Shown here: piece by piece, positions 8,015 to 9,845 of the stretch
Numbering within the stretch: the stretch's first letter is position 1
Layout: every line of letters begins with the position of its first letter
Source: Alphaproteobacteria bacterium
GTDB taxonomy: Bacteria; Pseudomonadota; Alphaproteobacteria; UBA9655
Length of the DNA stretch: 64,000 bases
Direction: 5' to 3'
Assembly (NCBI GenBank): GCA_019749915.1
Contig: JAIEPE010000015.1
Coordinates: forward strand, 1-64,000
The notes under the pieces: generated by a model
What the model was told of the DNA's origin: nothing
The model's input: the letters and a program-made list of their open reading frames with translations, nothing else
Databases searched by the model: none
Made by a program: the position numbers and the translations under genes

Positions 8015-9562
8015 TCAAGAATAAGTGTGCTTTGTTAAAAGTTTCTGAAGATCCTTCAACTGGAACGCCCCCACGAGCCAAATTGCCATAAGATAGATCA
8101 AGAACCCTCCTCCAATCCATAAACCCATAATCCCTCCTCGCATCAGTAATGTTTTTGGGAAAGGCATCATAAATTGAAAACCGTAGCAACAGAGGCCCAT
8201 AAGCAAGGAAGCCATCAGAAGACGTGGTACCACTTTTTTAAATCTCTCATCAAAAATCATCCATTGCTTCGTCAACAAAAGTGTCCCTAAAATTGCTGCA
8301 TTAAACCATGCGGCGCAAGCCGTTGCTAAGGCAAGCCCTACATAGCTGAGAGGACCAATAAGAAGGAAATTCAATATAAAATTGAGACCAACCGCCGCAA
8401 TGGCTATTTTCATCGGTGTTTTTGTATCTTGGCGCGCAAAGAATTGGGTGCTTAAAATTTTGACCAAAACATAGGCTGGCAACCCTAAAGAAAAGGCGGC
8501 AAGGGTCATTCCTGTTGCCTGACTATCTTCCAGAGAAAAAGCACCGCGCTCAAACAAAAAAGTGACTATTGGCTTTCCTAAAATAATTAATCCCACGGCC
8601 GCAGGTAATGTGATGGTCAGGGCAAATTCAATGGCCCGATTCTGTCTGTGATGGGCCTCCTCTATCTTCCCGGCCTTAATATGTTTGGAAAGTTCAGGGA
8701 GAAGAGCTGTACTAATGGCAATGCCAATCACCCCCAAAGGAAGTTGATTTAGTCGATCTGCATAAAAAAGATAGGATACCGACCCGGTTGGCAGCCAAGA
8801 GGCAAAGATCATATCCATAAATAGGTTGACTTGAATAACGCCGGCACTGATGGCTCCCGGGATTCCCAAACGAATAAGGGACTTGGTTTCCGGCGTTAAT
8901 TTAGGAAGGACAATTTTAACGCCCATTTTTTGAAAATGGCAGGAAACCCACAGCCACCCTAATTGCAATACGCCCGCAATGAAGACGGCCCAGGCCAATC
9001 CCTTTCCAGGAGAAATCCATTCCAATAAAGCCATAAGAAGGGCTGCGATCATTGTTAAATTTAAGATGATGGGCGTGCCCGCGGCGGCTGCAAACTTTCC
9101 CATAGAATTCAAGATACCGCTTAAAAGAGAGGCAAGAGAGATAAACAAAATATAAGGGAAGGTGATGCGAGAGAGGGTCACCGCTAAATCAAATCGCTCG
9201 GGTGTGGATTCAAATCCAGGGGCAAACAAAAAAACAGCCGTCGGCATGAAATGTTCAATGAGGAGAACAAATCCCGTCAACGTAAAAAGAAGGAGAGCAA
9301 AAATTTTCTCTCCATAAAGCCGCGCTGCCATAGGGCCTGAGGAGACAAGAATCCCTGAGAACAACGGAACAAAGGCCGCATTAAAGGCCCCTTCTGCAAA
9401 AAAACGACGAAAAAAATTAGGAAGCTTAAAGGCCACAAAAAAGGCATCTGTGATACCACTCACACCCAAAATACCTGCAATAAGCGCATCCCGAACAAAC
9501 CCTGTTAGGCGGCTTGCAAAGGTGAAACCCCCAACGGTAGCTATGGACTTGTAAAAACTCAT
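8015..9562 (-). CDS. murJ: lipid II flippase MurJ (paralogue 2)
   Basis: The second 515-residue MurJ-type flippase aligns with its neighbour along the whole length; SIATVGG, FFRR-FAEGAFNA, SRITFP-ILFISL, SGILNSM and YADRLNQLPL are shared. By eye roughly half of the N-terminal 180 residues are identical. The ATG at 9562 follows GAAGGGGAT, a strong ribosome site. It lies downstream of a structured leader element (9583-9690) whose last part supplies the ribosome site. Tandem placement without disruption points to a duplication kept under selection, perhaps for different conditions or substrates. Confidence 0.93.
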   Translation of the reverse strand: MSFYKSIATVGGFTFASRLTGFVRDALIAGILGVSGITDAFFVAFKLPNFFRRFFAEGAFNAAFVPLFSGILVSSGPMAARLYGEKIFALLLFTLTGFVLLIEHFMPTAVFLFAPGFESTPERFDLAVTLSRITFPYILFISLASLLSGILNSMGKFAAAAGTPIILNLTMIAALLMALLEWISPGKGLAWAVFIAGVLQLGWLWVSCHFQKMGVKIVLPKLTPETKSLIRLGIPGAISAGVIQVNLFMDMIFASWLPTGSVSYLFYADRLNQLPLGVIGIAISTALLPELSKHIKAGKIEEAHHRQNRAIEFALTITLPAAVGLIILGKPIVTFLFERGAFSLEDSQATGMTLAAFSLGLPAYVLVKILSTQFFARQDTKTPMKIAIAAVGLNFILNFLLIGPLSYVGLALATACAAWFNAAILGTLLLTKQWMIFDERFKKVVPRLLMASLLMGLCCYGFQFMMPFPKTLLMRGGIMGLWIGGGFLIYLMAIWLVGAFQLKDLQKLLTKHTYS

Positions 9563-9582
9563 ATCCCCTTCGCCTTTCAAGT

Positions 9583-9690
9583 TTCGGGTGCGTTAACCTT
9601 TGGAACTCGCCTTCTGTCGCGTAGGTGACTATGCTCATCGGGCTCGCCGCTTGGTTGCCTACCCGAATCCTTGAAATTCTTCGGGTAAGC
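9583..9690 (-). promoter_or_regulatory. structured leader or interspersed repeat upstream of murJ paralogue 2
   Basis: Read on the minus strand, an 11-bp stem (9690-9680 with 9667-9657, one G-T pair, 12-base loop) is followed by a third segment, ACCCGAA at 9589-9583, that can pair with the same central TTCGGGT. The two pairings exclude each other. A smaller stem, GTCAC...GCGAC, lies between them at about 9615-9630. The last copy ends 20 nt before the murJ ATG and just before its ribosome site. It could be an attenuator-like switch or a dispersed structured repeat. The rest of 9563-9845 holds no gene that I can see. Confidence 0.45.
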
Positions 9691-9845
9691 TAAGCCTCTC
9701 GTTTGTTGAGCTCAAGATATAAGCCTTCGCAAGGGGCGTCAATCGGATTCTCTTTACTCTATTATGGAGAGATCTTCCTTTAAAAATTTTGGAAATTAAC
9801 GCAACATCTCATTCTGTACAGTATGTGGTGAAAGAGATAATCCTC

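Follow-up and report, generated by a model that had tools for sequence, protein, structure and literature searches.

Organization of the murJ leader

The window (the whole 64,000-nucleotide stretch of DNA that was analysed) carries two tandem, clearly diverged murJ genes on its minus strand (6402-9562), downstream of ftsH. The first of them (8015..9562, minus strand) encodes a lipid II flippase; its product was confirmed as MurJ by a match to PF03023 (E 3e-112). A promoter-like TTGACG-17-TATCTT site lies further upstream (9714..9742, minus strand; one such site was found against 0.4 expected in shuffled sequences). Between this site and the murJ ATG stands an element of 128 nt, a rod-shaped imperfect palindrome (9562..9689, minus strand), which was matched with exactly these ends and 125.2 bits by R1, a covariance model of 43 copies from the genus. 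The A of the murJ ATG is the final base of the element.

The element opens with a left terminal inverted repeat, CTTACCCGAAGAATTTCAAG (9670..9689, minus strand; consensus in the genus TATACYCAAAGGATTTCAAG), and closes with a purine-rich right terminal inverted repeat, CTTGAAAGGCGAAGGGGATA (9562..9581, minus strand), which we propose as the ribosome-binding site of murJ. The apical hairpin of the rod, GCATAGTCACCTACGC, occupies 9619..9634 (minus strand); this copy has lost one pairing of the family helix, with an A in place of the G of the family. The ends of the window copy read TTACCC...GGGGATA and those of the genus TATACYC...GRGTATA. The copy at murJ is a decayed one: under R1 it scores 125.2 bits, and the best of the listed copies reaches 147.8.

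The original prediction was built on three mutually complementary segments in this leader, whose letters and coordinates are correct when checked on the minus strand. The segment GCTTACCCGAA (9690-9680) is able to pair with the central segment TTCGGGTAGGC (9667-9657) over 11 positions, including a single G-U, and a second ACCCGAA (9589-9583) is located 20 nt 5' of the murJ ATG (9562-9560). Two readings had been offered: an attenuator or riboswitch-like translational switch, and a structured repeat of dispersed occurrence from which the ribosome site derives. In such a switch, the ribosome site would be accessible when the centre is paired with the 5' arm and masked when it is paired with the right arm. 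The second of the two readings is the one that holds up. Its repeat nature is established by the searches reported below, and its role as a ribosome site is suggested by position and orientation.

The leader element is a dispersed repeat

BLAST of the region returned 11 matches in its own genome, itself included, and the region was matched in 10 of the 94 genomes searched (its own included), all of which belong to one genus. The copies have TATACYCAAAGGATTTCAAG and CTTGAAAGGCGAAGRGTATA as their common terminal inverted repeats. A search with the right-end pattern was positive in 10 of the 14 genomes of the genus with no match to the reversed control, and the left-end pattern in 9 of the 14 with a single control match. 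Within the fetched stretches, a profile recovered 94 copies or fragments from 10 genomes. Full copies measure 127-128 bp; deletion forms of ~62 bp, 100-nt forms and forms of ~150 bp with an extra hairpin are also present. In the ~150-bp forms (loci of G002, e.g., L019, L096, L085 and L156), the inserted hairpin has a sequence close to CCCCGCGAAGGCGGGG and is located near the right arm.

The core pattern was identified in 21 stretches of public genomes, all of them in records of Alphaproteobacteria (e.g., GWC2_42_16). No match to the exact core pattern was found in viral contigs, and blastn with one copy from the genus gave no match in plasmids and phages. The leader is a copy of a dispersed mobile repeat with defined ends and not a switch.

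Folding and covariation of the element

The leader folds at a predicted -46.5 kcal/mol against a mean of -35.2 kcal/mol in shuffled sequences (z -3.28), and it is more stable than 200 of 200 shuffles. The predicted fold is a long-range rod that joins both ends, and most of the start-codon region is paired within it. The centre (9657..9667, minus strand) forms the inner left arm of this rod and the third segment, ACCCGAA (9583..9589, minus strand), is its partner, with pair probabilities of 0.85-1.0, whereas the 5' hairpin of the original prediction has a probability of 0.0. When this hairpin was forced, the energy rose to -39.4 kcal/mol, a cost of ~7 kcal/mol. Eight other copies gave z values of -6.4 to -8.1 in five cases and -3.2 to -4.3 in three.

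Covariation was then evaluated over 43 full-length copies. The cells of the rod are paired in 89.3% of cases against 84.5% in shuffles, and two-sided changes are found in 18 of the 43 rod pairs against 12.2 in shuffles, a count as high being reached in 1 of 500 shuffles. The number of cells with two-sided changes is 95 against 32.9, and none of 500 shuffles was as high. Sliding the partners by one to three columns reduced the cells paired to 27-46%, a measure in which the rod is favoured because its structure was derived from one aligned sequence. The third segment falls in helix 2 of the rod, where 6 of 15 pairs present two-sided changes. Five covarying pairs require a minimum of 4-6 changes each on quick trees, which were built without the columns around those pairs. 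The same kind of rod is found in one other alphaproteobacterial family, in which 21 of the 38 predicted pairs have changed on both sides (11 sequences).

The pairing of the 5' arm with the centre behaves differently. In the same 43 copies, 2 pairs show two-sided change against 3.3 in shuffles, 62.8% of the cells are paired against 64.2% in shuffles, and runs of at least seven pairs are found in only 4 copies. Covariation, as read from the alignment, supports the rod and not the 5' hairpin; of the three-arm arrangement, the pairing of the centre with the right arm stands and that with the 5' arm does not.

These results bear directly on the switch. The three complementary segments do exist, and both the window copy and its G003 orthologue allow 9 contiguous pairs between the 5' arm and the centre within the element. 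Nevertheless, the zero probability and energetic cost of the 5' hairpin, a covariation that is not above shuffles, the scarcity of long runs of pairs, the lack of the element at murJ in 10 of the 12 upstream regions examined in the genus and the presence of the same repeat at unrelated genes make this reading highly improbable. Conserved mutually exclusive pairings, which would characterize a riboswitch or attenuator, were not found at the orthologous leaders. Moreover, no Rfam family reached its gathering score over the element, in agreement with the earlier remark that the leader resembles no known riboswitch; at E <=5, the window element presented only a 12.5-bit partial match on the other strand, to a family with a cut-off of 42.3.

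Relationship to ERIC

ERIC repeats are widely used in strain typing. They are described as elements of 127 bp with terminal inverted repeats, a target-site duplication and TA ends in the review by Delihas (PMC2229807). Their range is given as Enterobacteriaceae and Vibrionaceae in passages of a 2024 review (PMC10969869), and a genome screen reports their presence in E. coli, Y. pestis and V. cholerae (PMC2267715). The element at murJ resembles ERIC (also IRU or RU-1) in several respects. Its terminal inverted repeats start with TATACYC in the genus and carry TA at both ends, its main full-length class is 127-128 nt long (128 nt for the window copy) relative to ~127 bp for ERIC, it forms one long stem-loop with base-pair covariation, and it presents the loop motifs AGGC / CAACGC and GGAG / GTGAC.

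The relationship was assessed with three covariance models, whose E-values are rough: R1, which includes no ERIC copy, R2, built from copies of one outside alphaproteobacterial family, and R3, built from 17 ERIC copies. Across 289 genomes of the class, R1 had hits in 5, of which two belong to the genus; in one outside family, it had hits in 6 of 16 genomes. R2 had hits in 69 of the 398 genomes of the phylum that were searched, and this was the result that pointed to ERIC. A query that we take to be the ERIC sequence was found in 5376 of 5426 E. coli genomes and in 23 of the 398 genomes of the phylum, one of which belongs to the window's class (G679, over 61 nt); plain BLAST with this presumed sequence found nothing in the window's own genome. 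R1 recovered all 12 ERIC loci over their full length (E 1.3e-12 to 1.7e-18), one of these loci coming from a named E. coli and eleven from other genomes of the phylum, and R2 found 9 of the 12. Reciprocally, the element was the only match of R3 at E <=10 in the 64-kb window (48.4 bits, E 5.1e-8). Among 39 loci that were preselected, having already been matched in earlier searches, R3 found 35, namely all 33 alphaproteobacterial loci (E 3e-11 to 0.0013) and two outside the class; its four misses are rods with other termini.

At the sequence level, the consensus of the genus is 69% identical to that of ERIC and the window copy 66% identical to the ERIC consensus (alignment A4). The alignment of the two consensus sequences scores 35 against a mean of -4.3 for base-shuffled sequences (sd 4.5, maximum 10). 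When the ERIC-PCR primers, in the form that we presume, were compared with 24 loci hit by R2, the best match had 6 mismatches of 22. The element is homologous to ERIC copies in both sequence and structure, and differs in its hosts, since the relatives of the genus are Alphaproteobacteria and not Enterobacteriaceae or Vibrionaceae; this is a difference of distribution and not of structure. Because the model matches are reciprocal, we assign it to the ERIC family within Alphaproteobacteria. The leader element is almost certainly an ERIC-family insertion, a link that is carried by structure-plus-sequence models with rough E-values.

A different palindromic repeat, such as Rickettsia RPE, Correia or RUP, might merely resemble ERIC. 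All of these are stem-loop elements of ~100-160 bp with terminal inverted repeats, and several are TA-ended, according to Table 1 of PMC2229807. The RPEs are alphaproteobacterial like the element and measure 105-146 bp, and RUP and Correia/NEMIS are, by their description, short elements with terminal inverted repeats, TA ends and folded transcripts (same source). Yet the end-to-end matches between the models are reciprocal, and four rods with other termini went unmatched by R3 in the same test, which makes this alternative very unlikely. RPEs are further set apart by description, as they are known for in-frame insertion in genes: by a crude test, 3 of 94 hits in the genus lie within the frame of a long ORF, and protein-coding insertion of the Rickettsia RPE kind was rejected on this count. 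RUP is tied to IS630-Spn1 in PMC2229807, and no such partner was found for the element in the fetched loci of the genus.

One Rfam family did present similarity to relatives of the element. RF02818 (V_AS5, Vibrio RNA AS5) gave end-to-end matches, below its gathering score, to L250, L252, L253 and L255, which are relatives from genomes outside the class, and L250 and L255 match the ERIC model too. V_AS5, a Vibrio antisense RNA, looks ERIC-type, and copies of this type may have been the basis of the Rfam family. The copies of the genus are more distant: L005 reached just 20.1 bits (E 3.6) as the sole match among five loci, and V_AS5 did not match the window copy at E <=5. Rfam returned nothing over the element in six loci from outside the genus.

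ERIC is a known kind of element, and its alphaproteobacterial branch and the start-codon junctions described below are apparently undescribed in open papers: neither these nor ERIC as a ribosome-binding site was found in a search of the open literature, most subscription journals lying outside its coverage.

Insertion at murJ and murC

The start region of murJ was matched in 12 of the 14 genomes of the genus, while G006 and G009 gave copies of the element only. By the profile, the element is present at murJ in two of the 12 (G000, the genome of the window, and G003) and absent at the other 10. Each of the 10 element-free loci carries a TTGACN-17-TATCTT or TATTCT site upstream of murJ, and the flank that adjoins the element is uninterrupted in G010 (...CGAGAGACATATATGAGC) and G012 (...GCGAGAGCATGCATGAGC). 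For murC (TIGR01082), the element is present in G009, and no element was found within 75 nt before the gene in 11 other murC upstream regions.

The comparisons at murJ and murC fit insertion at a TA just before TG, with flanks that have since drifted. The left junction at murJ of G000 has drifted and its TA duplication is not clean, so that a target duplication at this site is putative. The element would have inserted at the TA that immediately precedes the TG of the murJ start and would thereby have split the old purine-rich stretch from the ATG. Transcription of murJ would continue from the conserved promoter-like site through the rod, and ribosomes would now load on the purine-rich right end of the element, AAAGGCGAAGGGG.

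Right ends of the element at start codons

Junctions with start codons were counted in 85 alphaproteobacterial copies that possess both ends (68 from the genus and 17 from outside), a start being defined as an ATG or GTG at the head of an open frame of 100 codons or more and called by ORF length only. The right end is located within -3 to +10 of a start codon in 21 of the 85 copies and the left end in 4. With two orthologous repeats removed, the counts are 19 for the right and 4 for the left (p 0.0026), and 13 against 2 when junctions are restricted to -3 to +1 (p 0.007). These counts leave out 26 of the 94 hits in the genus, in which the profile did not reach one of the ends, and 5 of the 22 R1 hits outside the genus (L207, L221, L229, L230 and L231), which are poor or short and none of which would count under the same rule. 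One copy (G009:C9:3455) is counted on both sides, and its left ORF (131 codons) is doubtful. We rely on the contrast between right and left ends because the null expectation from TA sites (415 of 8387) includes coding TAs. Among the 17 ERIC copies from outside the class, the right end is found at a start once and the left end never, with no clear bias; the difference between 21/85 and 1/17 is not significant (p 0.11).

The genes downstream of the element that were checked with family models are murJ, murC, rlmH, aroC, fabF, der, recG, accC and an ABC-F protein, some of these matches falling below the curated cut-off and recG and accC being cut at the end of the locus. The names of the remaining downstream genes were read from their N-termini by eye, and the gene downstream of L004 had no family match. 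A common function of the downstream genes was rejected, as they are unrelated. In an outside alphaproteobacterial family, L213 and L222 (G316:C68 and G315:C4) present the element at the ATG of what is seemingly the same small gene.

Duplex energies were calculated with a 16S tail whose sequence we assume. The right end at murJ pairs with this presumed tail at -7.9 kcal/mol against -3.0 kcal/mol for the two closest uninterrupted murJ sites. More generally, right ends range from -4.2 to -7.9 kcal/mol and left ends from -2.2 to -3.8 kcal/mol, and element-free murC sites gave -0.9 to -5.8 kcal/mol with the same assumed sequence. In the window copy, a G-run lies ~2 nt and AAAGG ~10 nt from the ATG, neither spacing being ideal. 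The lack of a purine-rich stretch at the left end would explain why it is mostly right ends that survive at start codons: insertions at essential genes would persist in one orientation, and the bias between right and left ends would result. Position and orientation suggest that the right end of the element is probably the working ribosome site of murJ.

The insertion could instead be a passenger, i.e., an ERIC without a role in the translation of murJ, which would be achieved by other means such as coupling or a leaderless transcript. The non-ideal spacing of the candidate ribosome site would fit such a case. We consider this unlikely, since the old site now stands ~130 nt from the ATG and right ends are favoured at starts. 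Another unlikely alternative is that the once-mobile rod was domesticated as a cis-regulator controlling murJ translation or mRNA stability, for example through temperature-dependent opening of the right arm or cleavage by an RNase, of the kind that reviews describe for ERIC in Yersinia. The partial pairing of the right arm and the start-codon region in the predicted fold is compatible with this idea, and transcripts of ERIC and Correia are affected by RNase E and RNase III, respectively, in the passages cited from PMC2229807 and PMC10969869. However, the element is found at murJ in just 2 of the 12 genomes examined, and the window copy is decayed both in model score and in folding (z -3.28). 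We therefore favour an ERIC-family insertion at the TA/TG of murJ that retained the old promoter and contributed its right end as the ribosome site, an account to which we attach a probability of roughly 0.85. No ligand or alternative fold is needed for this leader.

Mobility of the element

The mechanism of ERIC mobility was unproven as of the 2007 review (PMC2229807). At the loci of the genus with PF13358 (IS630-type, the one family looked for), the search for a transposase whose ends correspond to those of the element was negative. PF13358 is present in 8 of the 14 genomes of the genus and not in the window's own genome, and the best end match at these loci is one poor 18-mer with 4 mismatches (L185). 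An IS630-derived MITE was considered and rejected, as terminal inverted repeats shared with an autonomous IS were not found at the PF13358 loci.

The presence of filled and element-free orthologous sites in one genus makes this divergent alphaproteobacterial branch an outgroup for the evolution of ERIC, and the branch offers a new place to seek the enzyme that moves ERIC. The junctions at murJ, murC, aroC, fabF, der and other housekeeping genes suggest a simple takeover of translation initiation by a mobile element. The leader also serves as a caution, since what looks like a riboswitch may be a folded repeat.

Rods with other termini

Rods with termini other than those of ERIC were observed in diverse genomes of the phylum (L247, L248, L249, L251, L257, L259, L260, L262, L264, L265 and L270). 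They share the core GCGGAGYKTA...TARMTGAGCA, and 22 of 29 predicted pairs present two-sided changes in 11 chosen sequences. These rods and ERIC possibly constitute one superfamily. A broader proposal, which we hold only tentatively and at somewhat less than even odds when its parts are taken jointly, is that ERIC belongs, as a single branch, to a superfamily of rods found throughout Pseudomonadota, in which the folded strand is selected and some members supply portable ribosome-binding sites. Its members would differ in their termini and have in common the AGGC/AACGC and GGAG-helix-RTGA loops; selection would act on folded RNA or single-stranded DNA and not only on the inverted ends; and fusion to starts at TA/TG would have occurred in at least three alphaproteobacterial families.

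The window's own genome possesses a second rod-type repeat with other termini. Its copies are located at L247 1501-1624 (minus strand; G000:C73:92849-92972), which is the copy that was read, and at G000:C58:34321-34444 and G000:C64:18220-18343 (R2, E 3e-18 to 4e-16). The rod of L247 nearly adjoins a copy of the ERIC type (92974-93100).
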